Source: Escallonia rubra
Taxonomy: Eukaryota > Streptophyta > Magnoliopsida > Escalloniales > Escalloniaceae
NCBI GenBank assembly: GCA_033065855.1
Contig: JAVXUO010000619.1
Span: 186,001 to 250,000 of the forward strand
Direction: 5' to 3'
Length of the DNA: 64,000 bases
The translations under genes were made by a program, and so were the position numbers. The notes beneath the pieces were generated by a model that had not been told where the DNA came from, ran no database searches, and was given only the letters and a program-made list of their open reading frames with translations. Within the stretch, counting starts at the first letter, position 1. The number at the start of each line of letters is the position of its first letter. Shown here in pieces: positions 18,493 through 60,186 of the stretch.

Positions 18493-21400
18493 ATGACGGA
18501 TGTGGGTGATAATTCTCCTGAGCGAAAATCAGGATGTGGCTTATTAAACGCAGTTTTTGGACGTCGGAACATATGGCCGAGAAGAGCAACCTCAACGGGT
18601 TCACTTCCCACGGCGAATGTCAGCAGTAGTATTCCTCGAGTACCGAGCACGCCAAATTCAAAAAGGCGACGTGGGGGCTCAGACGAGGCGGCGTTCCTCG
18701 AATCACCTAGTGTTTCATCCGAGCAATCGCAAAAGCAAGTTGACAGAATCATTGCTAGACCTGCCCCAAACCATCACAAAGCACCACCACCTGCACATAA
18801 TCCACATCAACCGCCGCCCGCTTATCACCAAAGTCAAGGTTATGGACAGGCTAGAAAGGTGCCACAAGGAACAAGCGGCATATCTGGCGAGCTAGAAAGC
18901 ATGATCAGCGATCACCAGAGATCTAAGGGTGCTAGTACATTGGTTCGAGCGTCCTCCAGTAATGTGATGCTTTTTGGAAATTTGGGCAACATTAGGCAAC
19001 AAGGTGGGATGGGGAATGTAGTGAACAATGTTCTTGATCACCTCCCAAGGACTGCAAGAGAGGAACCTTCAGGGCCTAATGGGAAGTACCCGAATAGTGA
19101 AATGGCGAATGTAGTTAAAAAACAGAATCAAGAGCCTGAGAAGCCAACTTCTTTGTGCCGAGCGCTCTCAACAAGAATGGATCCCGAGACGTTAAAAGTT
19201 ATGGGTAATGAAGATTACAAGAATGGAAATTTTGCAGAAGCTTTGGCCTTGTATGATGCAGCGATTTCCATTGACCCGAATAAGGCTTCATACAGGAGCA
19301 ACAAAAGCGCGGCATTGACTGCCTTGGGAAGGCTTCTCGAGGCAGTTTTTGAGTGCAGAGAAGCAATTCGGATTGAACCTTTTTATCAAAGAGCTCATAA
19401 CCGTTTGGCAACTCTATACCTCAGGTAAGTGAAATAGTACTTGTGCCCACTATTTAAATTAAGCCAACTTTTACAAAATGCATTCCAGTTGTAGAACTAA
19501 AAATTTGTGATCTCCTCAAGTTAATTTACAAAATTCAGTGAGAAAATGATGTAGCTAAAGTAATTTCTTTCTTCTCTGGATTCATCAACTTTTTTCTTCA
19601 TTATAGTCTAGTGGTACTAAAATGGACATGTAACTTTTTTCTGGGAACATTTCTCTGGAAATATCATTTCACGCTGCAGAATCATGCAAAACTTAGGGTA
19701 CGCATCCATGTCGTTAGCCACTAATTCAACTGTCTCTGAAACCTACACAGTCAAACCGCAGATTTACAGACGATTTAATGTTAATTCCTAGTTCGAGCAA
19801 TTAGCTCTGATCTATATTTCTGTCTGATCTTTAATCTCTTTACTTACTATTCTTGCTGTTATACTTTGCGGTTGCAGATTAGGAGATACAGAAAAGGTCA
19901 TGTACCACTACAAACATGCAGGTGCTGAAGCTGACCCTGATGTTATGACTAAAGCTAAAAACGTTCAAGCTCATCTAAACAAATGTACCGAGGCTAAGAG
20001 GCAACGAGACTGGAACACCCTGCTAAAAGAAACTGCACTTACTATATCAGCCGGTGCCGACTCTGCTCCACTGGTAAACCATCGAAAGTTCATAAATTTA
20101 AGACCATCCTTAAACCTATAGTACTCTCCATTTCTCACACGTACTTTTTCCTATTTTTTGAGAAAGATATTTGCTTTGAAAGCCGAGGCCTTGTTGAAGC
20201 TCCATAGGCACCAAGAAGCAGATGAAGCTTTCATAAAAGGTCCCAGTTTTGAAGTCGAGGACTGCACTAAGTTCTTTGGTCCTATCGGTTATGCCAGCCT
20301 GCTAGTGATACAGGCTCAAGTCGACATGGCTGCTGGCAGGTTAGGATAACTTTTTACTTGTTATAAAAATCGAGGTTGCCACCAAAATTTTAGTTGAGAG
20401 TTATGAGCATCTGTTTTGAATAAATGTCAAGATTTTACGAGTCTCTAATAAGCTATGTTTTCTTGTACAACCATGCTTGCAAAAAGATTGAGAAACGGAT
20501 AACTAGAAGTTCATTGACTTGATAAACCTTTAACTGAACCCTTCAACCACACCCTAATGACTATATTTTCTTAGGAGAGATCATTCCATCTCCATAACAA
20601 AAGAGTCAGATTTTGCATTTGACATTTTCCTTTCATTAACTTTAGCATGGCCCTGAAGATCGGCAGATGGTGCAGTTTCGAGCCATTTATTAGATGAGAA
20701 CAAAAGTACATTTGACATATCGATCTAATGAGCACCCAACAGCTAAGAAACGCAAGTCCATATCTCAACTTTTAAAAGCATGTCAATTCCACAGTTTTGC
20801 ATCTAGTCAATTGGACGGAGAGTAAACTGCTGATATGTGTTTCCTCAGATGTTTGATGGTGGTTATAGTGGTAACTCAGATAAAAAAAAAATGAAAAGGA
20901 AAAAGATTGACAAGAAAGCAATTGTTGGCAATCTTTAGGCCTAATGTTGAACCCAATGTTTTGCACCGTTATATAGAAAAAATTGATTATGAGAACCTTG
21001 TACAATATATCATCGTAAGAACTTTAATGGATTTTAGCGGGAACCGGTCAATTGGTTGCTTTCGCTTACATGCAGTAATCTGTTCCCTTCCATAGCTTCA
21101 ACTTGGCAATTGATCTTTGCTTAACAGTATTGGTGTCCTTTGGGTCGACAGATTTGACGATGCTGTGGAGGCGGCTCAACGGGCAGCTCGGCTTGACTCT
21201 AACAACAGAGAAGTAAACATGGTGGTGAGAAGAACACGGGCATTGGCAACAGCTAGATCAAATGGTAATGAGCTCTTCAAAGCATCAAGGTACTCTGAGG
21301 CATGTATTGCATACGGGGAAGGACTCGACCATGATCCCTACAACTCGGTCTTGCTCTGCAACCGAGCCGCCTGCCGGTCCAAACTCGGCCAGTTTGAGAA

Positions 21401-26837: not shown

Positions 26838-29800
26838 CTTCTAATGTGAGAAAGGAAAACATCTCTAGCAATAGGCTTGGTCAAAGGATCAGCCACCATT
26901 CTGCTAGTAGGTATATGCTTCATGGTCACCTCTCCTTACGCAACTAAAGTTCTAATGAAGTGATAATGAAGGCCTATGTGTTTGGCCTTCCCATGATATT
27001 TAGGGTCCTTTATAAAATTTAGGGTAGTTGTACTGTCACAATGAACAGTGACAGCCTCATCTGCATGAGCTGTAACCCCTAGAGCCTGTAAGAATGACCT
27101 CAACCAAATAGCTTCCTGGACTGCTGCTGAACAAGCAACATACTCTGACTCCATCGTGGATAGGACAATGCAAGACTGTTTCTTGCTGCACCAAGAGATA
27201 GCTCCACCTGAAGTGGATCTACGCTCATCTCTATCAATGCCCCAATCAGCATCGATGTATCCTCTCAGTCTCAAGTCTCCACCATGATAACACATGATGA
27301 GATAAACGGTTCCACGTAGGTATAGAAGAATCCTCTTCACCGCATTCCAGTGATCGGGTCCAGGATTACTCTGATAACAACTCACCATTCCAACTGCATA
27401 GCAAATGTCTGGACGCGTACACAATATAGCGTACATTAGACTCCCTACTGCAGTCGCATAAGGCACTTTGGACATCCAATTCTTTTCCTCGTCATTCTTT
27501 GGGCATTGGTCTATGCTTAAAGTACACGCCTTGTCCATTGGAGTGTCTATGAGTTTTGAGTTATGCATACGAAATCGTTCTATGACTTTCTTGATGTATG
27601 TCTCTTGAGACAAACCGAGAAGTCTCTTTGGACCATCACATATGATTTTAACCCCGAGCACATAATTAGCTTCTCCCATGTCCTTCATCTCAAAAGTTGA
27701 GGACAACCACTGTTTAGTGGCGACAATGGAACTCATGTCATTCCCAGATAAAAGAATGTCATCCACATACAAAGAGAGGATCATAATACTTTTCTTGGAT
27801 CATTTTATGTAAATACAATGGTCTTGTTCAATTATTTCAAAACCTATAGAGGTAATGGCATGATGAAATCTAAAGTACCACTGCCTAGACGATTGTTTGA
27901 GACCATATATAGAACGTTTGAGACGGCCAACTTTGCACTCATGTCCCTTGACTTCAAAACCCTCAGGTTGAGCCATATAGATCTCTTCGTCTAGTTTTCC
28001 ATTGAAAAACGCAGTCTTAACATCCATATGAAAAAGTTCTAAATCCTGTTGGGCAACAATAGTCAGGATCAGGCGAATTGAAGCAAAACTCACCACCAAG
28101 GAGAATGTGTCTTCATAGTTCACACCCCACTATTGAGTATAGCCTTTCGCCACAAGACAAGCCTTATACTTGTCAATTGACCCATTTACCTTGCGCTTGA
28201 CTTTTAAAACCCATTTGTTTCGAACAGTCTTGCGCCCTGTCGAAAGGTCAACTAACTCCCAGACCTAATTCTTTTTCATTGAGCTCAACTCATCTATCAT
28301 TGCAGCCATCCACTGATTACTAGCATATGAAGATAAGGTTTCTTCCACATAAGTGGGCTCATCTTCATCAGTTTAAGTGCACATAAGAATTTTTCCGTCA
28401 ATCTAAAAATGACGACGTGGAACTCTTCCCCATGCACCTCTACGCAGTTGAGAATCTTGTTGACCTGATGGTCCTGGTGGTGTGCTCCCACTAGGTTGAG
28501 GGTCACTAATATTATCTTCAGTAACAACCGGATGAGAAACTAATTCTCCACCTCACTTGGAGATGGTAAAGTGACTTCAACCTCCTCTAACTCATAAAGG
28601 TCAAGATTCTTACCGGTGTCTCCAATGCTAGGAAAATCATTCTCTATGAGATAAAAAACTTCTGGATAGGTATCCTACATCTGAACCGAGATTCTATTTT
28701 AGTCTTTCCACCATTTGGATGTTCACCATACATCACATAGCCTTTAGAGTTTTGAGAATACCTTAAAAACATACTCTTTTTAGCTCTAGGCCCTAGTTTC
28801 TCATACTTATGAGAAGTACTGTGAACATAACCTGCTGAGCCCCATGGGCGCAAGTTATCCAAATTTGGCTTTTGGCCATTCTAAAGCTCATATGGGGTGG
28901 ATTTGACTGATTGTGAAGGCACACATTTAAGTATATAGGCTGCAGTCAAAAGAGCATCCCCCAAAAAGATATTGGAAAGTTTGCTTGCGCCATCATAGAC
29001 CTAACGATATCTAACAATGTTCTATTCCTTCTTTCCACAATACCATTTTTTTGTAAATCATTAGGAATAGTAAGTTGCATGTGTATCGCTTTTTCCCCAC
29101 AAAATTTCTTGAAGTCATTGGACAAATATACGCGTCCCCGGTCAGTGCGAAGAGTCTTTAAACTCTTATCTTTTTGATTCTCAACTTCTGCTACAAAGCG
29201 TTTGAAACAATCCAAAGCTTCATAGCAGTGAGATATTAGATACACGTAACCATATCGCGTATAATCGTCTATCAGTGTGAGGAAATAAGAGGCGCCATGG
29301 CATGCCTTCACACTCATAGGCCCACATATGTCAGAGTGAACTAGCTCAAGTGGCTGAGTTGCTCTCACAGCCTTTTCAAAAGGCTTCCTGCATGCTTTAT
29401 CGGCCAAACAAACCTCACATGTTCGTAGATTGACTTTTGCGAGTGGGCCCAAAAGGCCTTCTCTAGTCAAATGAGTCATTCTATCTTGGCCTATGTGGCC
29501 CAGTCTTGCATGCTAGAGGTGGTAGAATCATTCACAATATTATCATTCACCACATAAAAATAAAAAACATGAGAATCAATTAAATCCAATTGAAAAATAC
29601 TATCCATGCGCATGTCCAAACAAAACATCATCCACAAAATTGTTCAACTTATTACCCCTAAAATTGAAGGAAAAACCATTGTCTAATAAACCAGTAACTG
29701 AAAGTAGATTAGGCCGAACAGTGGGTGCATACGCACATCCTCAAGAAGCAATGTGTGCCTAGTGTCCAATTTGAGCTGGTATGAACCAACCCCTAGCACC

Positions 29801-48893: not shown

Positions 48894-49360
48894 GGGGGCC
48901 GATCCCCATCGACCGGTGGGAAAAAAAAATTTTCCCACCCAATCGCCACTAATACATGCGATTGCAAAAAAAAAAAATTTGAGCCGCAATTGGGCCAAAG
49001 TGGGCCACAGAGGAGCCGCAATTGGCTTTGGGCCAATCGCAAGAAATACATGCGATTGGCCCAAAGCCAATCGCAAGACATACATGCGATTGGCCCAAAG
49101 CCAATCGCAAGACTATCATGCGATTGACTTTGGGCCAATCGCATGTATTTCTTGCGATTGGCCCAAGGCCAATTGCGGCTCCATTTTCTGAATTTCGGCA
49201 GTAACCCCCCGTGGCCCCCACCCCTCTTCCCCCCTCCCACCCGTGACCTCCTCCCTCCCCTTGGCCCCCACCCCTCTTCGACACATGGCACAAGATGGCT
49301 TGGCCCCCACCCCTTCCACGGCTCCCCCTGCATTATTCGGTCCTTTCCCCCCACTTTTCT

Positions 49361-49542
49361 GTCTATAAAATCCCTCTTCCCCGAATTATTTCTTGCACTC
49401 TCCTCATCCTCCCTATCTCACCTACATAATCTCCACAACAATACGAGCGAAAAAATTTACGCTAGAAGAAGATCGGTGGATAACCGCTAGAAGAAGATCG
49501 GTGGATTTCTTCGTCATTTTTTTCAAGTCAAAACAAGTAAGT
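49361..49542 (+). promoter_or_regulatory. TIR promoter, non-coding first exon and splice donor (left)
   Basis: TCTATAAAATCCC at 49362-49374 is a good TATA box. A plausible leader follows (TCTCACCTACATAATCTCC) and ends at CAAAACAA with GTAAGTATT as splice donor (49537). The matching acceptor TTCTTACAG precedes the ATG at 51025. The inverse copy at 59484-59636 serves the other gene. Positions are inferred, not shown by transcripts. Confidence 0.65.
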
Positions 49543-49919
49543 ATTTTGAATTTTCTTATAATTCAATGTTAATTTAAATTGTTCTTACGCTTAAATTGTT
49601 CTTACCATATTCTAAAATTTGTGTTTAGGGCGTCAAAATTACGTTTTTACAAATCGGGTATTACATTCGAAAGATTCGAAAATAGCGATTTTTTAAGGCG
49701 CCAAAATTATGATTTTTCACGAATTTATAAAAAATAGCTAGAGCTAGATTTTGCCAAAGTGCAAAAAAAAGACCCTGGTTATTTTTAAAAGATATGTATC
49801 AAGTAAACATGGCAGATTTTTCGAAATACTGGAAAGGGGTTAACTGATACGCGCAACCTTGTAACTTCGCAGTGTAATTTAAAATATCAAGCTAGCGCGA
49901 TTTCGCGCGAAACTTTTTT

Positions 49920-50885
49920 GAGAACCCTAGGATGTTGGAAAGTTCCATTCCCCAGGAATTCGGGCCATTCCGAAGCCGGTAGCAATTTTTTGCCGAACGG
50001 GCTTTTAAGCGCTCGATCCGAACACCGGTTCGGAATGTTTTGACGAAAAATCCCTAAAATGCTTTTTAGATCAAGGATGAACTCAGCAACCTTAGAATAG
50101 CGTCTTAAAGCACTTTTGAGATTTTTTCCCGATGCCAGGGGGCATTTTGGTAATTCGCCGCCCGATAGGGGTATTTTCGTAATTTCATGTTGAGCGCCTT
50201 TTCGAGCGTCTTTTCAGTCCGTAAATGTAAGCAAACCCTAGCGAAGATGGGAAGTTCCATTCCCCACGAATTCGTGCCATTCCGAAGCCGGTAGCAATTT
50301 TTTGCCTATGAAACTTTTAAGCGCTCGATCCGGACACCGGTTCGAAAATTTTTGACGAAAAATCCCTAAAATGCTTTCTAGATCAAGGATGAACTCAGCA
50401 ACCTTAGAATAGCGTCTTAAAGCACTTTTGAGATTTTTCCCGATGCCAGGGGGCATTTTGGTAATTCGCCGCCCGATAGGGGTATTTTCGTAATTTTGCC
50501 CCTTTCAACTTTTTTGAATGACTGCTTAGTCCATAAATGTAAGCAAACCCTAGCGAAGGCGGGAAGTTCCATTCCCCACGAATTCGGGCCATTCCGAAGC
50601 CGGTAGCAATTTTTTGCCTATGAAACTTTTAAGCGCTCGATCCGGACATCGGTTCGGATTTTTTGACGAAAAATCCCTAAAATGCTTTCTAGATCAAGGA
50701 TGAACTCAGCAACCTTAGAATAACGTCTTAAATCACTTTTGAGATTTTTGCCGATGCCAAGAGCATTTTGGTAATTCGCCGCCCGATAGGGGTATTTTCG
50801 TAATTTCACGCTCATTACTTTTTCGAGCGTCTTTCCAGTCCGTAAATGTAAGCAAACCCTAGCGAAGGTGTGGGAAGTGAGGAAT
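49920..50885 (+). repeat. Three tandem units of about 312 bp in the left TIR
   Basis: The marker AAGTTCCATTCCCCA recurs at about 49938, 50250 and 50564. Each unit holds GAAGCCGGTAGCAATTTTTT, GATCAAGGATGAACTCAGCA and GGGGTATTTTCGTAAT. The units lie in the presumed 5' UTR intron of the + strand gene. Confidence 0.88.
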
Positions 50886-51024
50886 GGTTTTCATACATTA
50901 AAGTAATGATTTAATGACTATTGTTATTGCGTTGGTAAGCTAGGTTAACGATTCAGTTACAGTTTTGGAATGTAAATATTATGGACGCTAAGTTAATGTA
51001 CGATTATATTTTGTTCTTACAGAT

Positions 51025-53956
51025 ATGGATTTCAACCCTGGACCTCATGATACATCAATCCTATACGATGACGATGACCACGTCGCGAGGCACGTATTTA
51101 ACGGTGTCGATAGGGGTGTTTTGGAAACATGTCAAAGCACAAGTGGCCATTCTGAGTGGGTACTGAACGATGAACAAATAGAACTACTACACAATCAAAA
51201 TTTGACGGTTTTCACCGATTGCGGGATTTGGTCTCGGCACGACGATTGCCTTATATCCGCTCTAGTTGAACGATGGAGGGGCGAGACGAACTCATTTCAC
51301 TTCCGGTTTGGTGAAATGACTATTACGTTAGAGGACGTCGGATTTATACTTGGAATCCCATGTCACGGTAGACCGATTACTTCGAATAAAACGTCGGCTT
51401 CAATCGCGAAGATGGCTAGGCAGTATTTTCTGGGAATTCCGAGGGAAGCTCTTTCAACCAACGGCATAAAACTTAAATGGCTGAGAGAGCAGTACGGCGA
51501 GCTACCGGATGAATACACTCCTCATGATTTTTCGGTGTATACGAAGGCATTCCTTTTGTATATTATTGGATCTATATTACTTCCGACGCAAAAGAAAAAC
51601 ACGGTGCATCCGAAGTATATGGTGTTCTTGGAGGATCTTGAGGAGGTATACTCATATTCGTGGGGTTCAGCTGTCCTTGCGCACCTATATCGAGCATTGC
51701 ACAAAGCTACGAGAAAGGGTGCCAAGTCCATTTCCGCCTGCATCACTCTGTTACAGGTTTGAGCATTTATATTCTTCGTTGACGTGTCAATATATTCGTG
51801 ATTAATAACTAATTCCATATTATGTTTGCATTCACAGGTTTGGTCTTACGAGAGGCTACCCACGGGTCGTCCACAGCCCGTAGCTGATTCCGATGAGACG
51901 TGGCCTAGGGTGTGGGCCTGGGGGCCTAGGCCCAAACGGAGTAGACGGGTAGACCCTCACCACAATCTAATGTTCTATCGGGGGGAACTAGATATGATGG
52001 ATGCATCCCAGGTGACGTGGCAGCCATATGGGAAGGTGATGCATCGGTTGGATGAGACGTGTTGGCAACTGCCGGTGTCGTACGTGCTGGCAGGTTTGGT
52101 TCGGGTGCCACTTATTCATTTCGAAGTATGTGAGTTTCAGATGCCCGATCGAGCTATGAAACAAGCTGGCTGTCTACAAGGGATACCAAAACCCGCTGTA
52201 GACATGCGGCCATACAGGAGCGGTCGAGGTCCGAATTTTGAGGTGCCTGATGCCTTGAATTTGCTGAGCGACGAGGTGCAACAGTGGAATACTTGGCAAG
52301 AAACGTATGGTAGCCTTGTATCGCTCAAGGACGACGGCACCAGTACTGAGGATTACCTGCAATGGTTTCTCAAGGTGACGCGCACGAGGGTGAATCGCCC
52401 TTCCCAAGTGAGGAAGACATCGTACGCGCCACGTGAGGTCTATGACCAGTTCTGGGCATTGAGCATTGTAAGTCAACTCTAGTGTCGTTTCAATATTTAT
52501 TTGCGCACCTTCTCGACCATGCCTGAAATGATGACGGTGATTTTTCTATGCATGTTTTTAGGTTGACAAGGGCACTGAGATGTTCAAGCAGCTCGAGCGG
52601 TTTGACTGGTATGTCGCGCATGCGCCTGACAGTTTCAAGAGCTCCGTTGAGTCGTACAAGACTGATCTTCACAACTTTGGTGTTGCGTACCGGGGTTACC
52701 AAGGGGAACCGTCTAGTCGCTTGCCTCCTGACCCGTTCGGCTCTCAGCCCCAGAGTCAGGGCCTGGGGGAGCCGTCTAGTCCCTTGCCTCCGGACGCGTA
52801 CGACGATGTGCCCCAGAGTGTGGTGTGGGAGCCGTCTAGTCTCTTGCCTCCTGACACCTACGACTTTGTGCCCCAGAGTGAGTTCTGGGAGCTGTCTAGT
52901 CGCTTGCCTCCTGACGCGTCTTTGCCCCAGAGGGAATTCTGGGAGCCGTCTAGTCGCTTGCCTCCTGACACGTACGACTCTCAGCGCCAGAGTCAGGTGA
53001 CCGAAGTAGGAATCCAGGCCTCGCGCCCAAGCAACCGGTCGGATAAAGGACAAGCGACAAAGCCATTGAGGCCGAACAAGCGGGATTGGATCGACCGGCA
53101 CTACTTCGGGCCTGAGCCTGTCGATTCAACAGACTTTCCTCTTGGAACATGTCTAGGTCACGCGGATGTGAGAATGTTGGCACCGGAGACAGATATTTCA
53201 AATTTTGTCATGAACGCTTATATAGATCTGCTCCGGATTAGAGAGCTACGTTATAACCAGTGCGAAGGCATGAAGCTTAACCTGCATCCCACTTACTTTG
53301 TCACGTTAATGGTGACCAGCATGAGGGAGTTAACAGAATCGAGGAGGCGAGGGGCAGGCAAGGGTAAGTGGAAACCATCTGGAAACGTATTAGGCCTGTT
53401 GAACGCAGACAACCAATGTCACGCTGCCGATGCGAACCTTGTCATGATACCTTGCCATCATGAACACCACTGGTTTCTATTAGTTCTCCATCCAGCGAAC
53501 AGACAGGTCAACATATACGATAGCCTAAGGGAGGACTCTCCTGGTCGGTCGCTGGCACAGATGTATAGCGAGTACATCACTGCAGTGGTTAGTTTTTATC
53601 GGTTGACCTTGGCTCATAGCATATTCTTATTGTAACATAGGCATGATGATCTTTTTAATTGTTGGTTGCAGACTACTATCTTCTCGCTAGCGTGCCGAGA
53701 TTATTCGGGGGAATCCATCACCAGGTACTCGACGGTAGAGCCTTGGACGGTCGTGATGATAAAGGACCGACCAAAGCAATATAACAGTCACGATTGCGGG
53801 ATTTACGTCCTCAAGTACATGGACTACATTGCTCGCTCGGAGGTGCTCAGATATACGTCGTGGACAAGGAAGGCTGCCTTGACGTTTAGGTATAGGATAG
53901 CCTGGGAGCTGAAAAAAAATGAAGCTAGATGGCTTCATTACCATTATCCTAATTAG
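51025..53956 (+). CDS. Transposon-borne plant mobile domain / C48 (Ulp1-like) protease fusion, four exons
   Basis: Exons are 51025-51756, 51838-52467, 52562-53587 and 53672-53956, GT-AG and all phase 0, giving 890 residues. Residues 25-440 are a plant mobile domain (PMD, aminotransferase-like/MAIN family): VERWRGETNSFHF, GEMTITLEDVGFILGIPCHG, WLREQYGELP, WSYERLPTGRP. A linker (about 503-600) repeats PSSRLPPD-like motifs five times. The C-terminus is a C48 cysteine protease with a credible H757-D774-C838 triad and Q832 (HHWFLLVLHP, VNIYDSL, YNSHDCGIYVLKYM). C48 enzymes cut SUMO or ubiquitin-like tags. PMD proteins occur both as silencing regulators and inside transposons. The role here is unknown; it may aid transposition or counter host silencing. 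The ATG follows a splice acceptor at 51021. Confidence 0.9.
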
Positions 53957-55172
53957 CGTGACTATGGTGCAATGAGCAAAGAACCCCTTAAAAAAATGTA
54001 TATGTATTTTCGCAAGCTATGAATTTGGCGATAAAGTGTGCGCGAATATGCCTTTTATAGGAAAACCAAATATATTATTTGTCTCATTTTTCGCCGAAAT
54101 TCTTACGAATGGGCTATTAGCGTGCCTAAGGGGCAATGAGCGAAAAAAAAGTGACAAAAAAAATTACAAGATTTTTCGGAAGCTATGAATTGGGCCCTAA
54201 AGTGTGCCCGAATAGGCCCTTCATAGGAAAACCCAAAAAATAATGTGTCTCGTTTTTCGCCGAAATTCTTACGAATGGGCTAACTAGCGTGCCTGAGGTG
54301 CAATGAGCGAAAAAAAAGTGACAAAAAAAATTACAAGATTTTTCGGAAGCTATGAATTGGGCCCTAAAGTGTGCCCGAATAGGCCCTTCATAGGAAAATC
54401 GAAAAAATAATGTGTCTCGTTTTTCGCCGAAATTCTTACGAATGGGCTAACTAGCGTGCCTGAGGTGCAATGAGCGAAAAAAAGTGACAAAAAAAATTAC
54501 AAGATTTTTCGGAAGCTATGAATTGGGCCCTAAAGTGTGCCCGAATAGGCCCTTCATAGGAAAACCCAAAAAATAATGTGTCTCGTTTTTCGCCGAAATT
54601 CTTACGAATGGGCTAACTAGCGTGCCTGAGGTGCAATGAGCGAAAAAAAAGTGACAAAAAAAATTACAAGATTTTTCGGAAGCTATGAATTGGGCCCTAA
54701 AGTGTGCCCGAATAGGCCCTTCATAGGAAAACCCAAAAAATAATGTGTCTCGTTTTTCGCCGAAATTCTTACGAATGGGCTAACTAGCGTGCCTAAGGTG
54801 CAATGAGCCAAAAAAAGTGACAAAAAAAATTACAAAATTTTTCAGAATCTATGAATTGGGCGCTAAAGTGTGCGCGAATAGGCCCTTCATAGGAAAACCC
54901 AAAAAATAATGTGTCTCGTTTTTCGCCGAAATTCTTACGAATGGGCTAACTAGCGTGCCTGAGGTGCAATGAGCGAAAAAAAGTGACAAAACAAATTACA
55001 AGATTTTTCGGAAGCTATGAATTGGGCCCTAAAGTGTGCCCGAATAGGCCCTTCATAGGAAAACCCAAAAAATAATGTGTCTCGTTTTTTGCCGAAATTC
55101 TTACGAATGGGCTAACTAGCGTGCCTGAGGTGCAATGAGCGAAAAAAAGTGACAAAAAAAATTACAAGATTT
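53955..55172. repeat. Tandem array of about 165-170 bp between the convergent genes
   Basis: About seven units share GAGGTGCAATGAGCG, GACAAAAAAAATTACAAGAT, GGAAGCTATGAATTGGGC, GTGCCCGAATAGGCCCTTCA and TGTGTCTCGTTTTTCGCC. The first unit starts directly at the PMD/protease stop and is the most diverged (GCGTGACTATGGTG); central units are nearly identical. No open frame runs across it. It may act as the shared 3' region of the two convergent genes. Confidence 0.92.
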
Positions 55173-55271
55173 TTCATTCAACAAACCAAATCACAAATTA
55201 AAGATTCAACAAACCAAATCACAAATTTAAACATTATAAAAGTTATTCGTTATACAACTGAAACATTAACC

Positions 55272-57572
55272 CTAACACTCTTCATCATCATCGTCCTCCT
55301 CGACCATACTGCCAGGTGCGAGACCTAACACTTTATAATGGTTTCTCTTGTCATGATCAGTCATCTTATTACACAACGCACACTTTCGCAATTTTTTTTG
55401 ACCCGTTTCTTTTTCAATCGGATTCTTCATGCGTATTTCTCGTTTTCGCCCTTTTGTTTGAGAAATAATTGGATCAAAAATGTCGTCCTCCTCACCTTGC
55501 ATGCTAGTGCCGTCAATGACTGGCTGTTTGGCTCGATTGAATCTACCGGCTGGAGTCGTCCGAGTAGTCGGAGTGTCCCGTCTTTGTGGATCAGCCATCC
55601 TAAACTGTGCATGCTTAGCCGTATCCCGTGCGGCTGCTTCAACTTGATACTTGTACCCATCAAATGTTGACGCTGCATCCAATGATAAACCGTGCATGAT
55701 GTTACAAAGGTGATTATATCGCAGCGGCTCAGATTGCTCGAAATCAACTGAAACATTGGGCACGTAAGGAATGTGACCGTGGACTATATTGGCTTCCTTC
55801 GTCCACCGTTCCAAGATATACTGTGGAGGGATTTCACGAGCATTCTTGGAGCTCAAAACCCTCAACGCGTGTCGACAAAGTATACCTTTATGCTCAAACA
55901 ATTGACAGTTGCAATTTACCAACCCGGTGTCCATACATTTAGCCACGGTAAAATGTCTTCTGTTCCTCGGAGCCGACGAAGAGCACGGATTGGCGAAATT
56001 CGTCACGTTTGTCAAAGCATAAACCTTGAGATCTCTGGTGGAATACTCGTGCAACTTTGTCATGCCATATTGATTCGACTTTAGTAGTTCATCTTGAAAC
56101 TGTCTAAACATTTCCTTGGTATAGACTTGAGCCGCATGAGCCTCCAAAGGTGAAAAGAGTAGTATGGCTCTTTCTCTGTAAGCTGTAGCCGCGTCGGCTT
56201 CTCTCTCACGGTACAATTGCCTATCAACGGCTTTCTGCATCTCCAGTACGAACTCCACTATACTTGAAGACTGGCTTACGTACCCATCAAAGAATGAATT
56301 CATAGCTTCGCTTCTCGAGGTCGTAGTCATTCCGGCTGCAAAAAACTTCTTGGTGTAGGCACCGACCCACTGTGTCTTGATCTCATACAACGATTGTAAC
56401 CATCCATGATTGTGCAAACCGTAGTCATCCATTAACGTGGCCCACCTCTCCTCGAACACGTCTACCGTCAACGATTTCTTCACACATGTATTAAAGTCAG
56501 TCTTGAATTCCGGATGGTTTGCATATACATTGTGAAGCCGTTCGGGATATTTGTTGCTTATGTGCCACGTGCACAGGCCATGGTGAGTATCTGGAAGGAC
56601 CTTAGCGATTGCATTTTTCATTGCCAGATCTTGGTCGGTGATGATGGTCTTTGGAGGAATACGATACATTGCTTGAAGCCACGTTTCAAATAACCACGTA
56701 AATGACTCCTCCGTCTCATCCCTAAGCAGGGCAAAGCCAAACGAGATTGACTGATAGTGGTGGTTCACCCCCGTGAACGGAGCAAAAGGCATAGAGTACT
56801 TATTGGTGCGGTATGTGGTGTCAAACGTCACAACATCCCCAAAATTTTGGTAAGCAGCTATAGAACGGGGGTCCGCCCAAAATATAGTACTAATGCGGTT
56901 CTCATCATCGAGTTGGATACTGTAGAAAAATCCAGAATTCTCACTCTGAAGGCACCTGAAGAGATCAAGTGTAGCTTGAGCATCATTCCTACCGAAAGAC
57001 TCTCTCTTCTGAGCACGAAGTTCATTTCGAAGGTCTACGTCGTTGAAACTCAACTTGTCAATCCCCCCAGCCTGGCTTGAGAAAACCCCCATCATCTTAG
57101 AAGGTGGAATTTTAGCCCCGGCCATTGTAAAAATCAGTTGTCTGTGTGCCGCGCTAATTTCTCGGTGTTGATGAATTTGACCAATCTTACTGGGAGTCAT
57201 CAACTGATGATTATGACTCAACTCCACTCCCGTCACAACCCAATGGTTTTCTTTTTTCCGGTGTACTGCATACACATGGGCCTTGCAGCCGGTACCCGGA
57301 AATGTGTCGCGTTTTCTTTGTCTTGTTGTCCCTTCGTCACTGATCTGAACGACCGGGGGTACATGCGGTGCTCCTCTATGACACTCAAATAACCTTGCAC
57401 CAATTTGATCGGTATTCACCCGTTTTCTAGTCGTCTTAGTTCTAATACCGAAACCCATCGTTTTCGAATATGCTCTGTAGTATGCTTCGACTTCGTCCAG
57501 TGTTTGAAAAACTTGATCCAAGTAAGGTGGATCAGAACCTTCACAAAAATTGCTTCCTCCAGTTGCATCCAT
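55272..57572 (-). CDS. Mutator-like transposase, FAR1/FHY3-related, 766 aa
   Basis: A single open frame starts MDATGGSNF. An N-terminal FAR1-type zinc-binding DNA-binding domain covers residues 22-125 (FQTLDEVEAYYRAY, GFGIRTKTT, C64, C96, H120, H122). The MULE catalytic core covers about 245-425, with putative DDE residues D251 (TFDTTYRTN), D313 (IITDQD) and E422 (SRSEAMNSFF), and the TWHISNK motif. A SWIM finger at 554-568 fits CxCx9CxH (CNCQLFEHKGILCRH). The C-terminus has a CALC...H pair and an acidic tail. This transposase would cut and move the element. FAR1 and FHY3 are domesticated relatives, but the TIRs around it show this copy is still transposon-borne. No stop or frameshift is seen. 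The 5' leader likely comes from the right TIR. Confidence 0.94.
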   Translation of the reverse strand: MDATGGSNFCEGSDPPYLDQVFQTLDEVEAYYRAYSKTMGFGIRTKTTRKRVNTDQIGARLFECHRGAPHVPPVVQISDEGTTRQRKRDTFPGTGCKAHVYAVHRKKENHWVVTGVELSHNHQLMTPSKIGQIHQHREISAAHRQLIFTMAGAKIPPSKMMGVFSSQAGGIDKLSFNDVDLRNELRAQKRESFGRNDAQATLDLFRCLQSENSGFFYSIQLDDENRISTIFWADPRSIAAYQNFGDVVTFDTTYRTNKYSMPFAPFTGVNHHYQSISFGFALLRDETEESFTWLFETWLQAMYRIPPKTIITDQDLAMKNAIAKVLPDTHHGLCTWHISNKYPERLHNVYANHPEFKTDFNTCVKKSLTVDVFEERWATLMDDYGLHNHGWLQSLYEIKTQWVGAYTKKFFAAGMTTTSRSEAMNSFFDGYVSQSSSIVEFVLEMQKAVDRQLYREREADAATAYRERAILLFSPLEAHAAQVYTKEMFRQFQDELLKSNQYGMTKLHEYSTRDLKVYALTNVTNFANPCSSSAPRNRRHFTVAKCMDTGLVNCNCQLFEHKGILCRHALRVLSSKNAREIPPQYILERWTKEANIVHGHIPYVPNVSVDFEQSEPLRYNHLCNIMHGLSLDAASTFDGYKYQVEAAARDTAKHAQFRMADPQRRDTPTTRTTPAGRFNRAKQPVIDGTSMQGEEDDIFDPIISQTKGRKREIRMKNPIEKETGQKKLRKCALCNKMTDHDKRNHYKVLGLAPGSMVEEDDDDEEC

Positions 57573-57599
57573 ATTTATACTGAAATCTAAAAAATAAAA

Positions 57600-58120
57600 A
57601 TTATATCATTCTCAACAAGTCATAGAATTAAATAAAAGAAGAATAAAATTTATTTGCAGTGTAATTGTTGGAAAATTTGTATAATGTAAAATTACCAAAA
57701 TAGCCCCCGATGAGCGGCAAATTACCGAAATGCCCCCGGGGGTTCATTATCACCCTAACGCCCCAAATCAGCTTCGAAACAACCTTTCAGGTGCTTTGCT
57801 TACATTTCTGGACGAAGCAGTCATTTGAAAAACTGAAAGGGGCAAAGTAACGAAAATACCCCTCTCGGGAATGCGAATTACCAAAATGCCCCCTGCCATC
57901 AGAAAAGCTGAATAGTTTTTTCAGTCATCGCCCCAACAAGCTTTATCTAATTCACAACTTTAAAATAACTTTTCGGGTGTCTCACACCCTTTCCTGAACT
58001 AAAAGTCATTCGGGAAATTCGTGTAATGTAAAATTAGGAAAATAGCCCCCGATGAGCGGCAAATTATCGAAATGGCCCGGGGTTCATTAGGACCCCAACG
58101 CCCCGCGAATCGGCTTCAAA
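57600..58120. other. Diverged repeat-unit DNA between transposase start and right TIR
   Basis: It contains degenerate versions of the 312-bp unit (GAATTACCAAAATGCCCCCT, TACCCCTCTCGGG). It lies in the presumed 5' UTR intron of the transposase gene. Confidence 0.6.
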
Positions 58121-60183
58121 TCAGCCTTCGCTAGGTGCTGTGCTTACATTTACGGACTGAAAATACGTTCGAAAAAGTTGACAGCGTAAAATTACGAAAA
58201 TACCCCTCTCGGGCGGCGAATTACCAAAATGCCCCTGGCATCGGGAAAAATCTCAAAAGTGCTTTAAGATGCTATTCTAAGGTTGCTGAGTTCATCCTTG
58301 ATCTAGAAAGCATTTTAGGGATTTTTCGTCAAAAAATCCCGAACCGGTGTCCGGATCGAGCGCTTAAAAGCCCGTTCGGCAAAAAATTGCTACCGGCTTC
58401 GGAATGGCCCGAATTCCTGGGGAATGGAACTTCCCAGCCTTCGCTAGGGTGTGCTTACATTTACGGACTGAAAAGTCGTTCGAAAAAGTTGACAGCGTAA
58501 AATTACGAAAATACCCCTCTCGGGCGGCGAATTACCAAAATGCCCCTGGCATCGGGAAAAATCTCAAAAGTGCTTTAAGATGCTATTCTAAGGTTGCTGA
58601 GTTCATCCTTGATCTAGAAAGCATTTTAGGCATTTTTCGTTAAAAAATCCCGAACCGGTGTCCGGATCGAGCGCTTAAAAGCCCGTTCGGCAAAAAATTG
58701 CTACCGGCTTCGGAATGGCCCGAATTCCTGGGGCATGGAACTTCCCATCTTCGCTAGGGTTTGCTTACATTTACGGACTGAAAAGACGTTCGAAAAAGTT
58801 GACAGCGTAAAATTACGAAAATACCCCTCTCGGGCGGCGAATTACCAAAATGCCCCTGGCATCAGGGAAAATCTCAAAAATGCTTTAAGATGCTATTCTA
58901 AGGTTGCTGAGTTCATCCTTGATCTAAAAAGCATTTTAGGGATTTTTTTTTTTTTTTTCCCGAACCGGTGTCCGGATCGAGCGCTTAAAAGCCCGTTCGG
59001 CAAAAAATTGCTACCGGCTTCGGAATGGCCCGAATTCCTGGGGAATGGAACTTCCCAACATCCTAGGGTTCTCAAAAAAGTTTCGCGCGAAATCGCGCTA
59101 GCTTGATATTTTAAATTACACTGCGAAGTTACAAGGTTGCGCGTATCAGTTAACCCCTTTCCAGTATTTGGAAAAATCTGAAATTTTTACCTGATACAGA
59201 TCTTTTAAAAATAACTAGGGTCTATTTTTTGCACTTTGGCAAAATCTAGCTCTAGCTATTTTTTATAAATTCGTGAAAAATCATAATTTTGACGCCCTAA
59301 AAAATCGCTATTTTCGAATCTTTCGAATGTAATACCCCGATTTGTAAAAACGTTATTTTGACGCCCTAAACACGAATTTTAGACTATGGTAAGAACAATT
59401 TAAGCGTAACACAATTTAAACAATCAATTGGTAAGAACAATTTAAAATTAACATTGAATTATAAGAAAATTCAAAATACTTACTTGTTTTGACTTGAAAA
59501 AAATGACGAAAAATCCACCGATCTTCTTCTAGCGTAAAAATTTTTCCGCTCGTATTGTTGTGGAGATTATGTAGGTGAGATAGGGAGGATGAGAAGAGTG
59601 TAAGAAATAATTCGGGGAAGAGGGATTTTATAGACAGAAAAGTGGGGGGAAAGGACCCAATAATGCAGGGGGAGCCGTGGAAGGGGTGGGGGCCAAGCCA
59701 TCTTGTGCCCTGTGTCGAAGAGGGGTGGGGGCCAAGGGGAGGGAGGAGGTCACGGGTGGGGGGGGGAAGAGGGGTGGGGGCCCGGGGGGGGGGGAATCTG
59801 CCGCAAGGGGTGGGGCCAAGGGAGGGAGAAGGCCACGGGGGGGGGGGGGGGGGAAGAGGGGTGGGGGCCACGGGGGGTTACTGCCGAAATTCAGAAAATG
59901 GAGCCGCAATTGGCCTTGGGCCAATCGCAAGAAATACATGCGATTGGCCCAAAGTCAATCACATGATAGTCTTGCGATTGGCTTTGGGCCAATCGCATGT
60001 ATATCTTGCGATTGGCTTTGGGCCAATCGCATGTATTTCTTGCGATTGGCCCAAAGCCAATTGCGGCTCCTCTGTGGCCCACTTTGGCCCAATTGCGGCT
60101 CAAATTTTTTTTTTTGCAATCGCATGTATTAGGGGAGATTCGGGGGGAAATTTTTTTTTCCCACCGGTCGATGGGGATCGCTC

Positions 60184-60186
<3 letters not shown>
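58120..60186 (-). repeat. Right long terminal inverted repeat of the giant MULE
   Basis: It is the mirror image of 48894-50885: three units of about 312 bp (marker TGGGGAATGGAACTTCCCA at about 58418, again near 58729 and 59042), AT-rich stretch, splice donor, TATA, G-rich block, palindrome block and terminus. Differences from the left arm are mostly in homopolymers (for example the T-run at 58945-58958 and the G-runs at 59758-59850). Confidence 0.9.
59484..59636 (-). promoter_or_regulatory. TIR promoter, non-coding first exon and splice donor (right)
   Basis: On the minus strand TCTATAAAATCCC (about 59635-59623) is followed by the same leader as in the left arm and a GTAAGTATT donor just below 59484. 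A possible acceptor is TTTTTTAG or ATTTCAG just upstream of the transposase ATG at 57572. Confidence 0.6.

Follow-up and report, generated by a model that had tools for sequence, protein, structure and literature searches.

The window, a 64,000-nucleotide stretch of the Escallonia rubra genome (contig JAVXUO010000619.1, positions 186,001 to 250,000), holds an 11.3-kb Mutator-like transposon with two convergent genes, which is one copy of a multicopy family (Table 1). Its ends lie where the original prediction had placed them: both begin with GGGG..CGATCCCCATCGACCGGTGGG and adjoin (AT)n, and the genome has 229 occurrences of the terminal 20-mer versus 0 of the reversed control, so the ends are commoner than expected by chance. 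Because the element sits in (AT)n, the target duplication, which is 8-11 bp in MULEs, is unreadable. The predicted inverted repeats of about 2 kb were likewise borne out, with identities of 95% and 91% in the two longest blastn pieces and, in 100-column blocks, of 87-100% over aligned columns, indels apart.

Table 1. Features of the element (positions in the window)
Feature	Position	Strand	Remarks
Whole Mutator-like element	48894..60186	.	11,293 bp; from self-comparison and terminal 20-mer count
Left terminal inverted repeat (TIR)	48894..50869	+	~2 kb; end approximate
Left subterminal array	49012..49182	.	GCGATTGG/CCAATCGC palindromes, 34-bp unit
TATA-box-like TCTATAAAATCCC, left TIR	49362..49374	+	predicted fusion-gene promoter
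Fusion gene, predicted 5'-leader intron	49537..51022	+	CAAAACAA/GTAAGT ... TTCTTACAG/AT-ATG
Three ~312-bp tandem repeats, left leader intron	49923..50870	+	6 of 16 ATTTYSRTAATT motifs
Fusion exon 1	51025..51756	+	start codon, N-terminal half of PMD
Fusion exon 2	51838..52467	+	C-terminal half of PMD
Fusion exon 3	52562..53587	+	linker, then start of C48 (His757, Asp774)
In-frame ~60-bp repeats	52704..52997	+	code for Pro/Ser-rich linker
Fusion exon 4	53672..53956	+	end of C48, with Gln832 and Cys838; stop
Seven ~166-bp tandem repeats	54007..55175	.	between the two genes
Transposase, FAR1/Jittery-type MULE	55272..57572	-	766 aa, no stop
Transposase gene, predicted 5'-leader intron	57580..59483	-	donor as in fusion gene
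Three ~310-bp tandem repeats, right leader intron	58122..59057	-	six ATTTYSRTAATT motifs
Right TIR	58116..60186	-	~2 kb; inner end approximate
TATA-box-like TCTATAAAATCCC, right TIR	59622..59634	-	predicted transposase promoter
Right subterminal palindrome array	59900..60070	.	

Two convergent genes between long inverted repeats

The original prediction of two convergent intact genes was confirmed, as both are open in the window, the transposase on the reverse strand and the fusion gene on the forward strand. The fusion gene, whose exon model was drawn by eye from the sequence alone, is predicted to have four exons, with all three introns GT-AG, and to encode the expected 890-residue protein that joins a plant mobile domain (PMD) to a C48 protease. 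In Pfam, the spliced protein matched PMD (PF10536, E=7e-71; 239.6 bits, cut-off 34.9) and Peptidase_C48 (E=1e-19; 71.4 bits, cut-off 20.7), and DUF1985 stayed below its cut-off of 35.1, with 27.8 bits for the whole protein and 31.9 bits for exon 1 alone. His757, Asp774, Gln832 and Cys838 are all present and line up with SENP2. In place of the Trp in the HWLND segment of SENP, the window fusion and the five diverged copies have Asp. Taken on its own, the SENP2 alignment is weak (score -2.4). The C48 domain is a putative SUMO protease. No relatives at E<=0.001 came from a word search that used just the C48 region.

The open 766-residue frame on the other strand is, as predicted, a FAR1-type MULE transposase. 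It carries FAR1 (Pfam 4e-14), MULE (PF10551, 5e-33), ZSWIM1-3 RNaseH-like and SWIM (3e-7) domains, with FAR1 N-terminal and SWIM C-terminal, as in the Jittery/FAR1 group. Judged by domain content rather than by a tree, it belongs to the FAR1 type, which is the one listed for Jittery elements. D251, D315 and E422, which we take to be its DDE triad, are invariant in a 17-sequence alignment.

Both genes have predicted 5' sequence that derives from the TIRs, with predicted promoters and leader introns. The two TATA-box-like sites may have promoter activity, and the subterminal palindrome arrays are candidate transposase-binding sites. For the transposase leader intron there are two possible predicted acceptors, TTTTTTAG at 57587 or ATTTCAG at 57580. 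The ATTTYSRTAATT motif, picked by eye on this element alone, recurs in the tandem repeats of both leader introns, and four further motifs lie at 57701-58073.

Copies in Escallonia rubra and relatives in other genomes

The fusion gene belongs to the element throughout the family, which goes beyond the original observation. There are 59 scored transposase sites in the genome (53 without stops), 150 for fusion exon 2 (135 without stops) and 118 for exon 3 (97 without stops), the two exon lists favouring well-kept copies. Both genes are convergent in all five diverged copies and at no fewer than 37 of the 59 transposase sites, a hand count that leaves out 21 of the 59 and adds to a first tally of 26 eight sites paired by their exon-2 places (C1589, C2034, C247, C1174, C1232, C2697, C485 and C1731) and three paired by fetched loci (C1121, C1640 and C89). 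The first tally was a lower bound because "unpaired" sites such as C1121, C1589, C1640 and C89 carry fusion exons. This convergent pairing across copies rules out two separate insertions, one of the two outcomes against which the prediction had been set, and the copy number rules out a lone accident. The other outcome, a protease gene disabled in every copy, was not seen either, since open copies are present: of 16 copies read from end to end, 5 have a fully open fusion, three of these five having been picked for an open exon 3. The fusion is frameshifted in most close copies read and mostly deleted in C2464. Among 10 copies picked by transposase score, 9 have an open transposase.

Among the five diverged copies, the length variants of exon 3 differ in multiples of three, and the C48 catalytic motifs are retained in every one. 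Within the genome, NG86 pN/pS gave no significant purifying selection on C48 after transition and C-to-T bias, and the signal from pooled PMD pairs likewise lost significance with these biases; the ratio was therefore dropped as proof of selection on C48.

Outside this genome, a 7.3-kb contig from another source apparently encodes a like transposase and a PMD. The Heracleum sosnowskyi protein POM88_014597 (P0004), known from the protein alone, is a PMD-C48 protein that retains H, D, Q and C; it aligns with the window fusion over PMD and C48, but with 42% and 25% identity in two local alignments. Viral contigs held no relatives by the transposase or PMD alignments, and bacterial and archaeal contigs none by the transposase alignment. 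Many relatives among the matches listed are annotated MAIN-LIKE 2. In a PMD tree of 49 rows, the window PMD fell outside a well-supported clade of 40 rows to which the MAIN-LIKE 2 proteins belong; by path, the rows closest to it were Escallonia P0001 and P0002, with no supported pair and with long branches that make the placement unsure.

Known systems and a predicted fold match to VANC21

The likeness to MuDR that had been proposed holds for the convergent layout; kinship is not supported. The genes of maize MuDR are convergent as well; however, MuDR has a MURA-type transposase and TIRs much shorter than those found here, and no MuDR-family model was among the Pfam hits of our transposase at E<=0.001. 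mudrB is not known to contain a PMD or a C48 domain. In MuDR, as here, the transposase is accompanied by a second gene, there of unclear function (PMC6446971). Many MULEs of the MUDR, MUDRAVI2 and MDR groups have a PMD gene antisense to the transposase, as in our element, but their transposases belong to groups other than the FAR1 type; Table 1 of the same source gives no PMD for the Jittery group, which bears FAR1, and no ULP, the term "ulp" being absent (PMC6446971). Jittery-like MULEs of grapevine and melon combine a Jittery-type transposase with a ULP sequence, which in grapevine lies downstream of the transposase (PMC2528002); here, by contrast, PMD and C48 form one protein, and "mobile domain" is absent from the text of that source. 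A literature search whose scope was without Sasaki 2022, Hoen 2006 and van Leeuwen 2007 yielded no PMD-C48 protein and no link between the PMD and VANC folds.

A closer precedent than MuDR appears to be VANC/KIU of the Arabidopsis VANDAL elements. In Foldseek, the predicted models of two PMD relatives, whose mean confidence is modest (pLDDT 62 and 54), matched the VANC21-DNA crystal structure; these listings show ranked matches only, so that the absence of other families from them is uninformative. The PMD-VANC21 link is thus a predicted one, through the fold of relatives: a PMD-alignment profile did not find VANC21 among PDB sequences, its three matches having E >=0.12 and being of low complexity as far as shown. 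An AlphaFold model of the C48 part of P0004, with pLDDT mostly <40, was set aside. Like our fusion, VANC and KIU are encoded by the second gene of a MULE, and KIU, a VANC with a Ulp1 domain, shares the ULP/C48 domain as well. Action of KIUs on SUMO is considered unlikely (PMC6117577). VANDAL elements also carry short motifs in non-coding repeats (PMC13317346, PMC5735166). Unlike VANC/KIU, the fusion scores above threshold for PMD and below it for DUF1985, and its anti-silencing activity is inferred; VANDALs are non-TIR elements, whereas ours has long TIRs and a FAR1-type transposase. Nor does a shared fold prove shared function: the host proteins MAIN/MAIL1 have PMDs as well, and they promote silencing.

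A putative anti-silencing function and its alternatives

We consider that the second protein is probably an anti-silencing factor of the VANC/KIU type in an autonomous-looking, two-gene FAR1/Jittery-type element. Each of the two inverted repeats would supply the promoter of one gene; the fusion PMD would bind short repeated motifs, possibly ATTTYSRTAATT, in non-coding repeats of the element itself, and C48 would take a small modifier (SUMO or one of its relatives) off the silencing proteins at those repeats, which would keep the promoters of the element open. The fusion may thus be the tool by which the element avoids being switched off. That the protein acts on host silencing had been suggested through MAIN/MAIL1; the fold match gives the suggestion a better footing, as putative anti-silencing by DNA recognition rather than through MAIN/MAIL1. 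More tentatively, and a little short of an even case, PMD and the VANC DNA-binding domain could represent one ancient fold working on both sides, host MAIN/MAIL1 silencing and transposon PMDs un-silencing, with this family as a non-VANDAL anti-silencing system that couples DNA targeting to a modifier-removing protease. The function of PMD has been called unknown, though transposon silencing needs host PMD proteins (PMC8616336, PMC5418596), and the link by fold to an anti-silencing protein bound to DNA points to a direct role that can be tested. Since the family is multicopy, has open copies and unites a protease with a putative targeting domain in one protein, it would offer a natural setting in which to ask if silenced chromatin opens once SUMO-like modifiers are removed.

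The transposon-borne PMD could instead enter or titrate the host MAIN/MAIL1-PP7L complex, with C48 de-modifying it, so that methylation-independent silencing is weakened. The MAIN-LIKE 2 annotations are in keeping with this, and PMC5418596 and PMC8616336 suggest that transposon-borne PMDs may counter silencing; we nevertheless regard it as unlikely, because the window PMD lies outside the MAIN-LIKE 2 clade, in a placement that is unsure, and the fold match, from a comparison without MAIN-LIKE PMD models, better fits direct DNA recognition. A mudrB-like helper that aids integration or the transposase, for instance by de-modifying the latter, and leaves silencing untouched would suit the MuDR layout and the TIR-derived predicted 5' sequence of both genes. 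With a transposase of another type than that of MuDR and a fold match that points to VANC, we judge such a helper the least probable of these alternatives.

Scarcely more probable is a passenger, a gene or pair of genes captured from the host that rides between the TIRs without benefit to the element. Captured sequences are common in MULEs, and ULP occurs in unrelated MULE families (PMC2528002); the frameshifts in most close copies and the lack of proven within-genome selection on C48 would agree with such a passenger. Against it stand the high share of exon-2 and exon-3 sites without stops, though in lists that favour well-kept copies, the in-frame length changes and intact catalytic motifs of the diverged copies, and the like pairing of a transposase with a PMD that apparently exists in another genome.

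Structure of the element and its two genes

The Mutator-like element has both of its ends in the window, each starting with GGGG..CGATCCCCATCGACCGGTGGG and inverted relative to the other, and self-comparison of these ends bore out the terminal inverted repeats (TIRs) of about 2 kb that had been claimed for it. Domain matches and an exon model likewise upheld the original prediction of a FAR1-type MULE transposase convergent with an 890-residue fusion of a plant mobile domain (PMD) to a C48 peptidase. The transposase gene lies on the minus strand (766 codons) and encodes FAR1, MULE, ZSWIM1-3 RNaseH-like and SWIM domains, with D251, D315 and E422 invariant in an alignment of 17 sequences. The fusion gene lies on the plus strand and is predicted, from a model drawn by eye on the genomic sequence, to have four exons, separated by GT-AG introns, that encode 890 aa with a full-length PMD (239.6 bits) and a C48 domain (71.4 bits). 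Alignment with SENP2 placed His757, Asp774, Gln832 and Cys838, confirming the full H-D-C triad. Among the 17 PDB sequences listed at E<=1, the best relatives were SENP2, SENP5 and SENP1, and none of the chains bore the name of the NEDD8 protease SENP8.

The outermost part of each TIR is an array of GCGATTGG/CCAATCGC palindromes, with eight copies of the 8-mers at one end and seven at the other, followed inward by a TATA-like TCTATAAAATCCC, a leader and a predicted splice donor (CAAAACAA/GTAAGT); a predicted acceptor immediately precedes the start codon of both genes. From this arrangement we infer that transcription of each gene would begin in its own TIR and that a leader intron of 1.5-1.9 kb would be removed from each transcript. 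Each predicted leader intron holds three repeats of about 311 bp. The motif ATTTYSRTAATT, chosen by eye, is located in these introns, with 16 sites in the window element and none in its coding parts or in 52.5 kb of flank. Across 11 copies there were 8-16 sites per copy, every one oriented toward the gene, with a spacing that differs from copy to copy (about 311 versus about 597 bp). The intergenic space between the two genes is occupied by a tandem repeat.

The element is adjoined by (AT)n at left and right.

A multicopy family with paired genes

The window element belongs to a multicopy family. In the 566-Mb host genome, its terminal 20-mer occurred 229 times, versus 0 for the reversed control. 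We scored at least 59 transposase sites (96-100% identity, 53 without stops), at least 150 sites for exon 2 of the fusion (93-100%, 135 without stops) and at least 118 for exon 3, after excluding 23 secondary exon-3 rows; the best exon-3 stretch was stop-free at 97 sites, at 4 of which the second listed stretch has a stop. Since only the best 59 of 4698, 150 of 2760 and 118 of 2380 first-look candidates, respectively, were scored, these counts are lower bounds, biased to well-kept copies.

At 26 of the 59 transposase sites a listed exon 3 lay convergently within 8 kb, the distance being at most 1.8 kb in 25 cases and 6.2 kb in the remaining one, and a count by hand that added exon-2 places and fetched loci raised the paired sites to at least 37. 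Among seemingly unpaired loci, C89 contains exons 1-4 of the fusion and C1640 exons 2-4, up to its contig's end; at one of the 59 sites, C2464, the fusion gene is mostly deleted. Five copies from diverged subfamilies, selected by exon-3 sites and all stop-free in that exon, each have all four fusion exons, with aligned pieces 75-100% identical, and a transposase match in convergent orientation (94-97% identity), which begins late in L042 (residue 113) and L044 (residue 88). This pairing led us to reject separate insertions of the two genes. Two relatives outside the host genome, P0121 (the best for the transposase) and P0003 (the third-best for the PMD), probably sit on one 7,311-bp contig, since they share a source label and this contig size, and the Heracleum protein P0004 is itself a PMD-C48 protein whose homology to the fusion covers both domains.

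(AT)n was seen at 9 of 10 readable ends in seven copies (window element, C1738, C2974, C390, C2254, C2464 and C1004), the exception being the right end of C1004, and at both ends of C9, interrupted at one, while AT runs of at least 10 bp make up 0.38% of the window flanks; these data suggest that AT microsatellites are preferred as insertion targets. C9 is a 5.8-kb derivative, likely non-autonomous, that keeps both ends, the first two fusion exons and a portion of the third, but has lost most of the transposase gene except its ends. Further short end pairs (C67, C430 and C1395) also contain an exon-2 match.

State of the genes and selection

We read 16 copies in full: the window element, ten picked by transposase score and the five diverged ones. 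The fusion is fully open in five of them (window element, C1738, L041, L043 and L045), so that the protease gene is not disabled in every copy. That of C2489 is stop-free with part of exon 1 out of frame, and several copies lose frame at one common A-rich place in exon 1, where either mutation or an error of assembly may be the cause. Of the ten copies selected for their transposase score, nine have an open transposase. In the diverged set, L045 has a transposase that is open over its whole length, and the other four show gaps, an absent start or a shorter open stretch. All five diverged copies retain the catalytic HW, YDS and Q.N..DCG; L041 has HHENHW in place of an HHW string, with the catalytic His retained.

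Pooled over overlapping pairs, pN/pS was 0.48 for the PMD, 1.21 for the repeat-coded, fast-evolving linker and 0.63 for C48. With no mutation bias assumed, tests on three pairs, chosen as distinct but of unproven independence, gave p=0.009 for the PMD and p=0.04 for C48; under strong bias the values were 0.47 and 0.39. Two single PMD pairs gave p=0.018 and 0.045 under bias. Within-genome selection on C48 is therefore no longer significant under strong mutation bias, and the case for long-term upkeep of this domain rests on the triad retained in the host genome and Heracleum.

Known systems and a candidate role

That Ulp1-carrying MULEs and PMD-carrying transposons are known agrees with two sources: Jittery-like MULEs of grapevine and melon contain ULP sequences (PMC2528002), and in MUDR and related groups a PMD gene commonly lies on the strand opposite the transposase (PMC6446971). 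In Table 1 of the latter, no PMD is entered for the Jittery group, which bears FAR1, and the window element differs from that listing in having a PMD beside a FAR1-type transposase. A literature search, with most subscription papers outside reach, found neither a FAR1-type element with long TIRs that encodes PMD and C48 in one protein nor a link between PMD and the VANC21 fold.

VANC proteins of Arabidopsis VANDAL elements bind short motifs located in their own element's non-coding tandem repeats, and the element loses methylation as a consequence (PMC5735166); KIUs are VANC genes with a Ulp1 domain, whose effect on KIU elements is described as of the same kind (PMC13317346). Ikeda et al. speculated that PMDs borne by MULEs may act in anti-silencing (PMC5418596). 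The fusion appears to combine a VANC-like trait, a PMD whose relatives are predicted to share the VANC fold, with a KIU-like C48 protease, and the element, like VANC-bearing ones, has repeated non-coding motifs, here picked by eye. We consider it somewhat probable that the fusion is an anti-silencing factor, in which the PMD would target element DNA and the C48 domain would remove a modifier at the targeted site. SUMO as the substrate is the weakest step, because the window fusion has Asp at the Trp position of the SENP HWLND segment (Trp in Heracleum P0004) and KIUs were judged unlikely to act on SUMO (PMC6117577). It is possible that C48 strips another modifier or has a non-catalytic role.

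Features of the window by position
Feature	Window position	Remark
ORF with TPR repeats	18493-19428	311 aa
ORF with Pfam RVT_2 match	26936-27784	
Mutator-like element	48894-60186	both ends present
Intergenic tandem repeats	54007-55175	seven, about 166 bp each

Elsewhere in the window, the ORF with TPR repeats is perhaps part of a host gene, and RVT_2 is a reverse transcriptase typical of Ty1/copia elements. In P0001, a predicted 1040-aa protein of Escallonia rubra, a closely related PMD occurs together with PPR repeats, a combination that may stem from a gene-model fusion.
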